A stretch of DNA of 24,236 bases from a virus: positions 1 to 24,236 of IMG/VR virus record IMGVR_UViG_3300003688_000004. The stretch is one strand, 5' to 3'. The position numbers were made by a program, and so were the translations under genes. Below, piece by piece: positions 4,226-23,109 of this stretch; the stretch's first letter is position 1, and the number at the start of each line of letters is the position of its first letter. The notes under the pieces were generated by a model, which saw nothing but the letters and a program-made list of their open reading frames with translations, had not been told where the DNA came from and ran no database searches.

Positions 4226-4239
4226 TTAGGCGTATGAAT
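4226..4239 (+). promoter_or_regulatory. Start-associated sequence TTAGGCGTATGAAT, copy 1
   Basis: The 14 nt TTAGGCGTATGAAT include the ATG at 4234 and recur exactly at 4741-4754 around the ATG at 4749. Both copies lie 8 nt after a 36-bp palindromic element. The match stops after the second codon, so it marks translation initiation, not a shared protein domain. Confidence 0.55.
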
Positions 4240-12865: not shown

Positions 12866-13541
12866 TGCTCTTTGTATTTTAAGTACGATAAGTGATTAAG
12901 CACAGCAATCGCAGGTAAATCAAGCACTGCGTCGTGCTTCGTAATATCTTCATTCGCTAATTGATGAATGATATCATACCAAACTATTTCAACATCAACA
13001 GCAATTCTTTCATTCTCTTTTTCTCCTCTTTCCTTAAATAGTATTGTATAATTGTCTCTAATTTCTTTTTGAATTTTGAAAAAAAAAGCATAATGCCGTA
13101 GCCATCTTTAAACGGCATACTGCTGCAATCAATGTTTGGTATGTATTCATTTGTTTCAACATCAATTAAAAAGCAAGACACTACTTTGTCAATGTATTCA
13201 GTAGTGTCATCAATATCTTTTACTTTGCTTAATATCAGTTGCAAATCAACGAACTGCCCAAATTTCAAGTCCTTAATGAATTGAATAATCTTGTATTTCT
13301 TGCCGTCAATCGTGGTGAATACAGGCATTACGAATTCAGGTATCGGCTCTTTCAAAAAAGTAATATCATATTTCTTAATCTCATCAATACTCATTGCCAT
13401 CAAAGTATCGTAAGGTACTTCATAAATTACTTCAATCATCTTGCAAAGTGCTTCTAACTCTGTATATTCAGTGTTTTTAGCAACAGCAATGATGTCCTTG
13501 TATTGCTTGACTGTCAAGTGTTCCCAAGATTTTTTAATCAT
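12832..13541 (-). CDS. Tail chaperone long form by -1 frameshift
   Basis: The -1 frame behind the gene 13541-12984 is open from the T9 run at 13087-13079 to TAG at 12834-12832. It has no ATG, GTG or TTG before the late GTG in its second half, so it needs a frameshift to be made. Slipping at T TTT TTT would join 154 residues of the zero frame to 82 of the -1 frame, giving 236 residues. The extension looks coding: IAVDVEIVWYDIIHQLA, then NEDITKHDAVLDLPAIAVL, then NHLSYLKYKEQ. This is the design of lambda gpG/gpGT, where a -1 slip makes a minor long chaperone that recruits tail subunits to the tape measure. The extension frame is well supported; the slip site is inferred. Confidence 0.7.
12984..13541 (-). 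CDS. Tail assembly chaperone, short form
   Basis: A 185-residue protein read without frameshift. The start SWEHLTVKQYKDIIAV (5-20) and the helical body resemble Bacteroidetes phage tail-assembly chaperones. From residue 155 on, the zero frame becomes Lys/Glu/Leu-rich and of low complexity (KKKLETIIQYYLRKEEKKRM), typical of a short readthrough end after a slip site. The ATG overlaps the terminase stop (ATGA), so the two are coupled. The -1 frame continues with better coding character, as listed for the long form. Unusually for a chaperone, three genes separate it from the tape measure. Confidence 0.6.
   Translation of the reverse strand: MIKKSWEHLTVKQYKDIIAVAKNTEYTELEALCKMIEVIYEVPYDTLMAMSIDEIKKYDITFLKEPIPEFVMPVFTTIDGKKYKIIQFIKDLKFGQFVDLQLILSKVKDIDDTTEYIDKVVSCFLIDVETNEYIPNIDCSSMPFKDGYGIMLFFSKFKKKLETIIQYYLRKEEKKRMKELLLMLK
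13079..13087 (-). other. T9 slippery run (-1 frameshift site)
   Basis: On the minus strand the codons CTT TTT TTT TCA contain the heptamer T TTT TTT in the right phase for -1 slippage (X XXY YYZ). The -1 frame has a TAA about 30 nt upstream and none downstream until 12834, so the slip must happen after that stop. A weaker alternative is G AAA AAG further on (about 13017-13023). Confidence 0.6.
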
Positions 13542-14758
13542 AAGTATTTTATTTTATGTTTGATAACTTTTATTTCGCTCTTTAATCCTAATGTTTCGCT
13601 GTGCGTTGTAACTGCATATCGCATTGCATCCATTAGGTGGTCGTTATATTTCACAGGTCTATCAATAACATTGCCGAACTTATCTACTGCGAACTTATAC
13701 ATTGATATTTCTTTAAGTAAATTAGATGAAGCACTATCAATAAAGATATTGTATGAATTAACTTGCTGAATGCCGAAAAGCACATCTTTGTTTGAAGCAT
13801 ATACATTGAAGCCTGCATCGTAAAGTGCTTGAATTCTGTCAGCATTCGCAGTATCGCAGTAAATGTATGAGTATCTATCAATGTTTAATTCCTTCATCTT
13901 ATTGATAAGTGCTTCATTCGTAAGATTTGTCTTATACAGCAATTCTCTTACATAAAGATTGTCCCTCACAATCTTGCATTCAACAAGTGCGGTGGGATTA
14001 GAGAATCCAAAATCAAGCCCATAAAAACTTTCTCCTTCAATATCTTGCCAATCGCCGTTGTATATTTTATACTTCGGATAAATCAACTCTTTGCTTGAAT
14101 TTCCCCATTCTCCCAATGCATATACATTGTAGTAGTCCTCGTCCATTTCCTTTAATTGTAGCATTGTCTCTTTATATCCATCATCTACATACTTATTGTC
14201 AAGATAAGTCGTCTTTATCACTACCTTGTCAGTCGTGCGTTGCAAGTGCTTGTATAACCAATGCTGCTGCGACACAGGATTAAAGGTCAATATCATATAA
14301 TTGTGTGCTTTCGGTGTCCGCAATCTCAACTTTAATTGCATATAGTCCCTTTCCGTGAATTCCGTTGCCTCCTCCATCCAAATGCAGTTTGGCTCTTGCA
14401 CAGATTTCAATTTCTCCACCTTATCAACTCCCGCTGCTATCAACTGATTGCCAGTGATTGTGCATTCAATCGTCATATCGTTTTCTTTTATCTTGAATAA
14501 ATCATTTAGTTTGAAAGTATTGATTATATCTTTGAACAATAAGAACTGCGAACCTCTGATTGTCCTTTGAACCTTGCGTAAATAAAGGCAACGAAAGTAT
14601 GGCTGTTGAAGTGCTTGAAGTATCAGGTGAGTAGCAACTGCATAAGATTTGCCACTTCCTGCACCGCCGTAAAGCACCCACTCGCTGCTTCTCTCATTGT
14701 CAAAGTGCAGTGGTAAAGCCCATTTATTGAATATGTTTTCATCAATAATTATTTTCAT
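13538..14758 (-). CDS. terL: Terminase large subunit
   Basis: A 406-residue DNA-packaging ATPase/nuclease. Walker A is GGAGSGKS (31-38), Walker B is CIWMEEA (125-131) with the catalytic Glu, and the coupling motif is ILTFNP (156-161). The RNase H-like nuclease domain has Asp249 in GLDFGFSNPTA, Asp302 in YCDTA, and Asp373/Asp377 in NDHLMDAMRY. It is complete and of the PBSX/Terminase_3 type. It overlaps both neighbours by the ATGA junction. Its place, after the lysis genes and between head and tail modules, is unusual, because terL normally starts the head module. No small terminase gene is seen in the window. Confidence 0.93.
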   Translation of the reverse strand: MKIIIDENIFNKWALPLHFDNERSSEWVLYGGAGSGKSYAVATHLILQALQQPYFRCLYLRKVQRTIRGSQFLLFKDIINTFKLNDLFKIKENDMTIECTITGNQLIAAGVDKVEKLKSVQEPNCIWMEEATEFTERDYMQLKLRLRTPKAHNYMILTFNPVSQQHWLYKHLQRTTDKVVIKTTYLDNKYVDDGYKETMLQLKEMDEDYYNVYALGEWGNSSKELIYPKYKIYNGDWQDIEGESFYGLDFGFSNPTALVECKIVRDNLYVRELLYKTNLTNEALINKMKELNIDRYSYIYCDTANADRIQALYDAGFNVYASNKDVLFGIQQVNSYNIFIDSASSNLLKEISMYKFAVDKFGNVIDRPVKYNDHLMDAMRYAVTTHSETLGLKSEIKVIKHKIKYL

Positions 14759-15219
14759 TTCATTTTAGCAATAGTGGTGAGAATGATTAAAGTAATAACT
14801 ACTGATGCAAGTATGATGTATAGTATTGAGTAATTGTTTTTCTTTTCTAATTGCTGTTTTTCTGCAATATAGCGGTCTCTATAAACTATCCTGTATATCG
14901 TGTCTCGCTTCACTTCAACCGCTGTGTAAATCGTGTCGTAATGCTTGAAAATTTTGATTATAGCGTTGTTTTTATTGATAGTGATAGTATCTATCACCTT
15001 GCCTATTAAAAGCGTATCAAACTTAAATCCTTGCGTATAAATAGTATCTATAATAGTGTCTCTAATCCTCGTCAAGTAACTATCACCATACTTTGATATC
15101 GTGTATTCAAGCACGAACTTCGGCGAACGCTTCATCACTGCTTTATCAATATACCTTTCTGCACTGCAAGAAAAAAGAAACATAGCAATGAATAGCATTA
15201 GTATCTTAATATGCTTCAA
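14755..15219 (-). CDS. Possible separate u-spanin from internal TTG start
   Basis: Codon 125 of the endolysin frame is TTG (15219-15217). Starting there gives a 154-residue protein beginning MKHIKILMLFIAMFLFSC, a textbook lipoprotein signal with a basic start, hydrophobic core and Cys at residue 18. ATG codons at 132 and 137 exist but leave no basic n-region. The C-terminal span would sit in the inner membrane and the lipidated Cys in the outer membrane, as in phage T1 gp11, which fuses both membranes for lysis. Whether it is made from this start, by processing of the long form, or both cannot be told from sequence. Confidence 0.5.
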   Translation of the reverse strand: MKHIKILMLFIAMFLFSCSAERYIDKAVMKRSPKFVLEYTISKYGDSYLTRIRDTIIDTIYTQGFKFDTLLIGKVIDTITINKNNAIIKIFKHYDTIYTAVEVKRDTIYRIVYRDRYIAEKQQLEKKNNYSILYIILASVVITLIILTTIAKMK

Positions 15220-15591
15220 AGGGTCAAGCAATCGTAATGATGCTCTTTCTCTTAATGTTAGATGTAAATGTGCTCCCGTTGAATTGCCTGTATTTCCTGT
15301 ATAAGCAAACACTTCCCCCTTCTTTACTATTGCGTTGATATGCACTGGAACCCTTGATAAATGGGCTAATCCGTAGATATATTTATCATCTGCTACTTTC
15401 ATCTGCAATCCGCCAATATGGTCTTGCCAAACATTTAGCACCACTAAATCAGTATGTGCCGTGATTGGCGTGCCAATGGGCGTTGCAATATCTACGCCGT
15501 TGTGAAACTCTTTTCGCAAAGAGATAGGATGTGTCCTTTCGCCGAACGGCGAAGTAATGCGATATGTTTTAAGCAATTCATTTATAGTCAT
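14755..15591 (-). CDS. M23 endolysin fused in frame to a spanin-like lipoprotein
   Basis: A 278-residue frame with two distinct parts. Residues 1-125 form an M23 (LytM-type) peptidase: SPFGERTHPI, then FHNGVDIATPIGTPI with His30 and Asp34, LAHLSR with His77, and GAHLHLTL with His108 and His110. These zinc and catalytic residues cut peptide cross-bridges of the cell wall. The domain closes normally at RLLDPL. Residues 126-141 then form a lipoprotein signal (KHIKILMLFIAMFLFS) ending in Cys142. A beta-rich segment with repeated DTIY/DTI follows, and a C-terminal membrane span at 254-275. This second part has the layout of a unimolecular spanin. No stop separates the parts. The holin lies two genes upstream, making a lysis cassette. 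Confidence 0.8.
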   Translation of the reverse strand: MTINELLKTYRITSPFGERTHPISLRKEFHNGVDIATPIGTPITAHTDLVVLNVWQDHIGGLQMKVADDKYIYGLAHLSRVPVHINAIVKKGEVFAYTGNTGNSTGAHLHLTLRERASLRLLDPLKHIKILMLFIAMFLFSCSAERYIDKAVMKRSPKFVLEYTISKYGDSYLTRIRDTIIDTIYTQGFKFDTLLIGKVIDTITINKNNAIIKIFKHYDTIYTAVEVKRDTIYRIVYRDRYIAEKQQLEKKNNYSILYIILASVVITLIILTTIAKMK

Positions 15592-15863
15592 AATTTTCTT
15601 ATTTCAATCTTTGTCTGTTCATCCGCAATTGCAATTATTTTTTGTTCAGTTAGTTTGCAACCGCAGTTATGGTAAAGTGTTTTTAAATGTTTAAATTTTA
15701 TTATTGTCGCACTGCCATTGATTATTGAAATAGTATATCTTCCATTAGTTCCATCAATGATTTGCATTATTACATCAAATACGCCATCATTTACTATTGC
15801 AGTGTCTTCGCTGAATTCAGTAATGTTTTCATTGATTATTTGAATTGTCGTTACCGATTGCAT
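15588..15863 (-). CDS. Small hypothetical protein in lysis cassette
   Basis: A 91-residue protein with alternating strands (TTIQIINENITEF, then NGRYTISIINGSATIIKFKHL) and two close Cys (NCGC, 66-69). No family or signal peptide is recognised. The only early start is ATG at 15863, which gives a 35-nt overlap with the holin gene; the next Met is residue 33. It overlaps the endolysin start by 4 nt. Sitting between holin and endolysin, it could be a lysis regulator or an unrelated structural protein; the sequence does not decide. Confidence 0.6.
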   Translation of the reverse strand: MQSVTTIQIINENITEFSEDTAIVNDGVFDVIMQIIDGTNGRYTISIINGSATIIKFKHLKTLYHNCGCKLTEQKIIAIADEQTKIEIRKL

Positions 15864-16326
15864 TCTTAATATCCTTTATGTTGTCGTATATTTCTTTGAT
15901 ATCTTTTTTGTATTTGAATTGTCTTTTTATTTTGTCAATCATTGATTGCAGAATATCTGTTTGATAAATTATTTCTAAATTCTCTTTAATTGAAATCGCT
16001 TCAACAATTGCACCCAAAAACACAAGCGGCTTCACTACATCAACTCCTGCGTAGTGCTTAATGAATATGCCTAAAATAGCCACAACTAAAAACATAATCA
16101 ACTTAAATGAAATGCCAAATGCTAATCTAATTGATGTTATTTTTATCTTTCTCTTTATTGAAGCAATAATGCCTAATACCGTATCAATCATCATCAAAAT
16201 AAAAAAAGTAACTACTACATCTTTTTCTTTTAGTAGCAATGATACTAACCAAGAATATAAAAACATTATTGAAATACCAATAAATTCAAGCAAATTAGCA
16301 AGTATATGTTTTATTTTTTCATTCAT
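15829..16326 (-). CDS. Phage holin (phage_holin_4-like)
   Basis: A 165-residue membrane protein with about four hydrophobic spans (near 16-32, 37-57, 69-90 and 95-113) and a charged Lys/Asp-rich cytoplasmic tail (130-165). Features shared with the phage_holin_4 (Cph1/TcdE-like) family are MIDTVLGIIASIKRK (46-60) after the second span and EAISIKENLE (109-118) after the last. Holins open the inner membrane at a set time and release the endolysin. The endolysin here lacks an N-terminal signal peptide, so it would need this pore. It lies in the lysis cassette, 2 nt after the upstream gene. Confidence 0.82.
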   Translation of the reverse strand: MNEKIKHILANLLEFIGISIMFLYSWLVSLLLKEKDVVVTFFILMMIDTVLGIIASIKRKIKITSIRLAFGISFKLIMFLVVAILGIFIKHYAGVDVVKPLVFLGAIVEAISIKENLEIIYQTDILQSMIDKIKRQFKYKKDIKEIYDNIKDIKNAIGNDNSNNQ

Positions 16327-22137: not shown

Positions 22138-23109
22138 TTATGGTGTCAAGTGGAATTCGCTTACAAATGTAAAGTCCTTCACTCCTGCACCAATCTCGTA
22201 TTGAATGTCCATCACTAATTGCTTATGATAATCAGAATAAAACACTACTCTATCATCAAGCGAAATGTTATACGCTAATGTTAGATTGCCTCTGTAAGTC
22301 GCATAAATACATTGCTTCTTTGATAATGGTTGAGAAGGAACAGAATTTGAATTTAAACCACTCGTTGGCACAATCAACACTTCGGTGCCTGGATAATAGA
22401 ATGGCTTCAACGCACCATTTTCCGCCAATTGCGGGTCTGCTGTGTAATGGAAATAATTTGCATTACGCAACGCAATCGTCAATTTCCTTACTAATTCAGC
22501 AGGAACAAACACTACTAACTCTTGCCCTGTATAAACTGGCAACTTGCCAATCACTTCGTCCATTACGTTAATGATATTAGCAGTAGTTATCGTTTGTCCT
22601 GATGGCAAAGTGTTTTGATTTACCGCAGGAACATTTGTTTGCAATTGTTTTATCAATCCGTCAAACGCTTTGAAATCATTGGGAAATGCGGCAACTCCTG
22701 TATCTGACATCCACACTTGTCTTGATTGTTTCAATGCTACTTTAAGTAAAGCATTTTCAACAAGTGTGTCCAAAGCCGCAAATTCTTTGGGCATTTCAGT
22801 ATCGTTAGGCAACCATTGAGTTGCAAAGTATTGCTTCAATTGTTGCAAGCACCAAGTTTTGCGGATATTGAAGGGCTTTGTAGTAATAGTGAATTGTTTA
22901 ATCGTGTCTTGCCCTGTTGCATTGATATTGCAAGGATCTGTTGATGCAGTAACATCAGTGTCAATGACAGGTAGTTTAGTTATTTGACCTGACACATTAG
23001 TTACTTTATCAAAGTAATCAAGAGAGCCATCTCTTTCTATCGGCAACTGAATGATGTTGCCCGCTCTCTCCTCTATCCATTGATTAAGTAATGATAAATT
23101 GAATGCCAT
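22138..23109 (-). CDS. Major capsid protein
   Basis: A 323-residue protein with the pattern of a Bacteroidetes phage HK97-fold capsid: an early strand (KVTNVSGQITKLPVIDTDV), the helical spine region ALDTLVENALLKVALKQSRQVWMSDTG (about 112-138), a P-domain strand with ELVVFVPAELVRKLTIALRN (about 190-215), and a late beta region (FYYPGTEVLIVPTSGL). It makes the capsid shell. A scaffold gene with coiled coil lies upstream with one small gene between. There is no protease domain in the frame, as expected with the separate protease gene. Confidence 0.78.
   Translation of the reverse strand: MAFNLSLLNQWIEERAGNIIQLPIERDGSLDYFDKVTNVSGQITKLPVIDTDVTASTDPCNINATGQDTIKQFTITTKPFNIRKTWCLQQLKQYFATQWLPNDTEMPKEFAALDTLVENALLKVALKQSRQVWMSDTGVAAFPNDFKAFDGLIKQLQTNVPAVNQNTLPSGQTITTANIINVMDEVIGKLPVYTGQELVVFVPAELVRKLTIALRNANYFHYTADPQLAENGALKPFYYPGTEVLIVPTSGLNSNSVPSQPLSKKQCIYATYRGNLTLAYNISLDDRVVFYSDYHKQLVMDIQYEIGAGVKDFTFVSEFHLTP

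Follow-up and report, generated by a model that had tools for sequence, protein, structure and literature searches.

The fusion gene and its lysis cassette

The DNA analysed here, a stretch of 24,236 nucleotides from an IMG/VR virus record (IMGVR_UViG_3300003688_000004), is referred to at its full length as the window and carries on its minus strand a continuous open reading frame of 278 codons at positions 14755-15591. The frame starts with an ATG at 15591, ends with a TGA stop at 14755-14757 and encodes a protein of 278 aa, and full-length homologous versions are present in seven contigs, the window included. In this protein an M23 peptidase runs without interruption into a lipoprotein signal that ends at Cys142; a predicted periplasmic domain and a C-terminal membrane span follow. 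This agrees with the initial annotation, which had placed M23 peptidase, lipoprotein signal and C-terminal span in one frame at this locus and had left the strand unnamed; the strand is the minus strand, and the plus-strand reading of 14755-15591 is full of stops.

The gene is part of a lysis cassette. A holin is encoded two genes upstream of the fusion (15829-16326, minus strand; PF05105 Phage_holin_4_1 with E 1.2e-6, above the gathering score, and PHROG 199 holin). In between lies a gene for a 91-aa protein (15588-15863, minus strand), which matched no Pfam or PHROG family, contains a CGC motif that is invariant at 36% identity across clades and is possibly a lysis regulator. Its TGA overlaps the ATG of the fusion in an ATGA, and the stop of the fusion overlaps in the same way with the gene for the terminase large subunit (13538-14758, minus strand; PF04466, E 1.4e-48). 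These ATGA overlaps at 15588-15591 and 14755-14758 suggest translational coupling of the 91-aa protein, the lysin-spanin and the terminase large subunit. The gene order holin, 91-aa protein, fusion and terminase is found in the contigs showing both sides of the locus. The nearby holin gene and the M23 lysin to which the second half is fused place this half in a lysis cassette, as is the case for u-spanins.

Elsewhere in the window, two small genes at 4234 and 4749 (plus strand) are preceded by nearly the same leader, TTAGGCGT, followed by ATGAAT, and this leader is possibly a repeated regulatory site.

The M23 half

The M23 peptidase domain comprises residues 1-124 (15220-15591, minus strand). 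Residues 29-116 match Peptidase_M23 (PF01551, E 3.2e-18), residues 8-129 match the metallo-endopeptidase family PHROG 7767 (E 7.7e-20), and many solved M23 enzymes in the PDB match this first half as well, so that the complete M23 peptidase described earlier for the first part of the frame is indeed present. The zinc ligands of an M23 endolysin, HxxxD and HxH, are found as H30, D34, H108 and H110, and these residues and H77 are invariant in all homologues. No N-terminal export signal is seen in the M23 half, its N-terminus MTINELLKTYRITSPFG not being a signal, and this together with the PF05105 holin in the cassette corresponds to the features of a holin-dependent endolysin. Moreover, the scanned proteins of the window included no second lysin, which leaves the M23 half as the sole candidate for an endolysin in the fragment. 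It is a predicted endolysin, the solubility of which would be doubtful if the signal stays attached.

Lipoprotein signal, ectodomain and C-terminal membrane span

The predicted internal lipoprotein signal covers residues 125-141 (15169-15219, minus strand), as judged from sequence, hydropathy and invariant columns. It contains K126 and K129, a hydrophobic core at residues 130-140 and the lipobox residues LFS before Cys142 (15166-15168, minus strand), the residue predicted to be lipidated; pattern and hydropathy thereby bear out the earlier statement that the signal ends at this cysteine. F138, L139, S141 and C142 are invariant in the seven homologues, and the lipobox reads LFSC, or LSSC in contig L004, as judged by pattern and hydropathy. 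Cys142 is found at position 142 in all seven sequences and is the sole cysteine of residues 125-278; none of the seven fusion sequences has a cysteine after it, and the further cysteines of clade B (Cys64, in L010 also Cys66) lie inside the M23 domain only. In the survey cataloguing u-spanins a periplasmic cysteine was found in 0 of 58 u-spanins (PMC6139136). The signal occupies residues 125-142 of the frame and not the N-terminus of the translated protein, and an N-terminal signal as in a u-spanin would be present only in the predicted processed product of the fusion.

The putative periplasmic ectodomain (residues 143-252; 14836-15165, minus strand) is rich in DTI/DTIY. DTI, DTL or DTV occurs about five times and most DT positions are invariant, which makes the term DTIY repeats used in the initial annotation a fair description. 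AlphaFold, run with 7-8 sequences, did not resolve the ectodomain fold (mean pLDDT 39). A mainly beta periplasmic domain would be expected of a u-spanin; the model has strands at ectodomain residues 69-107, which are to be read at this mean pLDDT of 39. The C-terminal membrane span (residues 254-277; 14761-14832, minus strand) carries basic residues at its C-terminal end and is predicted from hydropathy, with the best hydrophobic window of 20 residues at 256-275 (mean Kyte-Doolittle 2.7), and from AlphaFold, which draws helices at residues 124-143 and 254-277.

Conservation of the fusion

The same continuous fusion is present in six other IMG/VR contigs with 53-95% identity. These form two clades, clade A with L002, L003 and L004 (84-95% identity) and clade B with L005, L009 and L010 (53-54% identity). 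The alignment of the seven sequences is ungapped through residue 252, showing that the length of the junction is fixed. An eighth fragment, contig L017, carries the C-terminal part of the fusion. Both halves are under purifying selection, as pairwise dN/dS values among closely related pairs are 0.03-0.13 for the M23 part and 0.03-0.11 for the ectodomain.

Homologues with the two parts as separate genes, the search for which had been suggested at the outset, were not met: the second half, the whole fusion, the terminase and the holin were used as queries against viral contigs, and the searches returned nothing but fused forms, unrelated loci and contigs that break off before the question can be answered. 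At first L009 and L010 had matched as the second half alone, but on inspection they turned out to be fused. Contig L006 was rejected as the same fusion, since it matches mainly via the M23 domain and continues into an unrelated C-terminal half. Furthermore, pattern scans of IMG/VR for other M23-lipobox fusions returned only the family of this fusion; the pattern, an M23 GNTG..TG.HLH motif with a lipobox 60-96 bases later, had one glycine codon fixed and therefore undersamples. No host genome was matched in the genome contigs scanned with the second half and with the 899-aa virion protein.

Host group and stand-alone counterparts

The nearest portal proteins of isolated phages are those of the Nonlabens phages P12024S/L, a distant likeness (E 6e-16) that points to a host of the Bacteroidota; the terminase is too widespread to tell the host. 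The phage lineage thus probably has a host of the Bacteroidota, and from the same distant relatives such a host would be expected to possess an outer membrane. The fusion-bearing lineage has no close isolated relative: tblastn against 50,697 phage records found no match for the 899-aa protein, a 323-aa protein (22138-23109) or the holin.

According to a survey of viral lytic proteins, phages of Bacteroidetes use only u-spanins (PMC12596118). In flavobacterial phages, stand-alone proteins with the layout of the second half are encoded in the lysis region: gp49 of Flavobacterium phage 11b (MKKLILILSLIFLFSC..., 154 aa) is encoded directly after the endolysin gp48, and gp03 of Riemerella phage RAP44 (MKSKFLLIIAVLLLFSC..., 192 aa) lies between holin and endolysin. 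U-spanin-like lipoproteins with a C-terminal span, all labelled as hypothetical protein, were seen in RAP44 (L034:1209-1787), in 11b (L033:28129-28593) and in Cellulophaga phage phi10:1 (L032:758-1231).

A proposed processing model and its alternatives

We propose that the gene encodes one lysis-cassette precursor, which carries both an endolysin and an outer-membrane disruptor and is probably cut before Cys142 by signal peptidase II. The M23 peptidase would fold in the cytoplasm, and the hydrophobic stretch from the end of the M23 domain would act as an internal lipoprotein signal in the orientation N-in, C-out. Because this signal begins where the M23 domain ends, the enzyme should stay cytoplasmic while the rest of the protein is translocated. 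The ectodomain would cross to the periplasm and the C-terminal span would return to the inner membrane. Diacylglyceryl transferase (Lgt) would lipidate Cys142 and signal peptidase II (Lsp) would cut before it. Two proteins would result: a 137-residue u-spanin, lipidated at its N-terminus and with the membrane span at its C-terminus, and a 141-residue M23 enzyme, on which the signal would remain as a hydrophobic C-terminal tail. This tail would probably be removed by a host RseP-type intramembrane protease or would else hold the enzyme at the inner membrane. Finally, the adjacent holin would let the enzyme reach the wall, and the spanin would then fuse the membranes. The gene with its conservation, domains, sole invariant cysteine and cassette is what was observed, and topology, lipidation, the two cuts and the role in lysis are inferred from it.

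For E. coli it was shown that RseP removes remnant signal peptides after the signal peptidase cut (PMC8144685; PMC10470546). Moreover, the RseP model substrates, signal peptides among them, had a large HA-MBP domain facing the cytoplasm (PMC10470546), which provides a precedent for freeing an N-terminal cytoplasmic domain from a signal. A lipoprotein signal right behind a folded domain of 124 residues would still be unusual, and the separated M23 half would bear a hydrophobic tail, unlike a canonical holin-released endolysin.

The fusion might also stay uncut as an inner-membrane protein with two spans and the M23 domain on the cytoplasmic face, so that cutting of the wall would be confined to the margins of holin lesions or to the time after membrane collapse, and the ectodomain would act with no free lipidated N-terminus. 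The signal abuts the folded domain without a linker and in the AlphaFold model residues 124-143 form one helix, as would fit such a protein. However, this would leave the lipobox and the sole invariant cysteine without an evident function, the hydrophobic core with its about 12 residues is as short as in a signal peptide, and without a cut the protein would have no anchor in the outer membrane, for which reasons we regard this reading as rather unlikely.

The initial annotation had offered internal initiation or a signal peptidase II cut of the fusion as alternatives, with the TTG at codon 125 (15217-15219, minus strand) as a start. Internal initiation at this TTG or at a codon near the border would give two proteins, a free u-spanin with its own N-terminal signal next to the fusion. 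Codon 125 is Leu-TTG in four of the seven homologues, i.e., in all four clade A sequences, the window among them, and a protein starting there would have a textbook signal, MKHIKILMLFIAMFLFSC. In clade B, however, the codon is Glu-GAA (L005, L009 and L010), and no start codon in codons 90-142 is common to all seven sequences; the most widely shared one, at codon 137 in six of the seven, is only five codons ahead of the cysteine, and a protein begun there would have no signal. Furthermore, the 28 window genes listed all start with ATG (28/28), mostly behind an A-rich stretch, with a mean of 10.2 A in the 20 bases upstream of the window gene starts; the 20 bases upstream of TTG125 contain 4 A and 9 G/C. 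In a position-weight score TTG125 reaches -5.2, a value equalled or exceeded by 49% of 194 ordinary internal TTG codons, whereas the leave-one-out median of the real starts is 3.4. The context is hence that of a random internal TTG, internal initiation at the junction is unlikely, and a two-protein output by this route is in our view improbable. As there is no conserved second start, a single precursor is the likeliest route. The idea of an endolysin and a u-spanin-like lipoprotein fused in one frame is upheld by the cassette and by the conservation in the lineage, the start at TTG125 is not, and the cut by signal peptidase II is the better of the two routes, although the hydrophobic tail of the M23 half had not been considered with it.

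A-rich leaders and ATG starts as in the window are expected for weak Shine-Dalgarno sites, as in Bacteroidota. A programmed frameshift releasing the M23 domain alone was rejected, since the position and the frame of the first off-frame stop vary among the seven sequences; by reading the codons of these sequences, the heptamer C CCT TTG was found only in the window and in L002.

The second half might instead be a membrane-anchored lipoprotein with another role, i.e., a lysis regulator, a factor of superinfection exclusion or an envelope tether. In line with this, no convincing sequence relative of the ectodomain was found among known spanins (the best PHROG match was a family of unknown function with E 0.0019, and an Rz-like spanin gave E 0.074), tblastn of the second half against phages gave no match, and its fold was not resolved by AlphaFold. 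The position in the lysis cassette, the u-spanin layout, the absence of a periplasmic cysteine and the stand-alone proteins of matching build that other flavobacterial phages encode next to their endolysin genes speak against such a role, which we judge to have only a slim chance. A u-spanin is well supported by architecture and, with place and host group added, is the preferred reading of the second half. Finally, two ordinary overlapping genes might have been merged by an assembly or sequencing error that erased a stop or frameshift, for which nothing speaks beyond the rarity of the design. Such an error is refuted by the six other contigs, in which the frame is open at identities as low as 53% and the junction has no indel, and its probability is negligible.

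Novelty and implications

Both halves are of known kinds; the novelty lies in their being conserved together in one frame and in the processing that this implies. No endolysin-spanin fusion is described in the phage-lysis literature searched, most subscription journals being outside that search; this agrees with the earlier remark that no described phage of such a design was known and marks a gap in that literature rather than a proof. The literature searched treats spanins and endolysins as separate proteins that act in sequence. The locus may encode a lysis polyprotein, from which signal peptidase II, possibly with an RseP-type protease acting next, would produce at 1:1 an endolysin, either cytoplasmic or anchored by its tail, and a u-spanin linked to the outer membrane, so that the host lipoprotein pathway would become part of the lysis mechanism; for this full scheme we see about even chances. 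If true, one precursor can supply the proteins for wall cutting and for lysis of the outer membrane, a natural protein can have a functional lipoprotein signal following a folded enzymatic domain, and phages can rely for lysis on the signal peptidase II of their host, which would release the lysin. Moreover, annotation pipelines would label such genes as M23 peptidase and miss the spanin, and missed fused spanins may explain some apparently spanin-less Bacteroidota phages.

Comparison with known systems

With u-spanins of the T1 gp11 type (PMC6139136) the fusion shares the lipobox signal, the cysteine-free periplasmic domain, the C-terminal span and the place in a lysis cassette. Unlike in these, the signal is internal (residues 125-142) and an M23 endolysin lies ahead of it in frame; the likeness is architectural, with no sequence similarity found to a tested u-spanin. 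11b gp49 and RAP44 gp03 have in common with the second half a FLFSC/LLFSC lipobox, a similar size, a C-terminal span and an adjoining endolysin gene, but they are separate genes with their own N-terminal start and a different ectodomain sequence, and the adjacent enzymes are of the GH19 or amidase type, whereas the enzyme of the fusion is of the M23 type. Phage M23 endolysins (PHROG 7767, PF01551) resemble the first half in the domain, the catalytic residues, the lack of a visible N-terminal export signal and the nearby holin; in contrast to these, the fusion continues in frame into a lipoprotein signal and has no cell-wall-binding domain. In SAR endolysins and NlpD-type LytM lipoproteins the membrane signal precedes the peptidoglycan enzyme, which is exported. 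The fusion shares with them a peptidoglycan enzyme linked to a membrane signal, but here the signal follows the enzyme, which should stay cytoplasmic.
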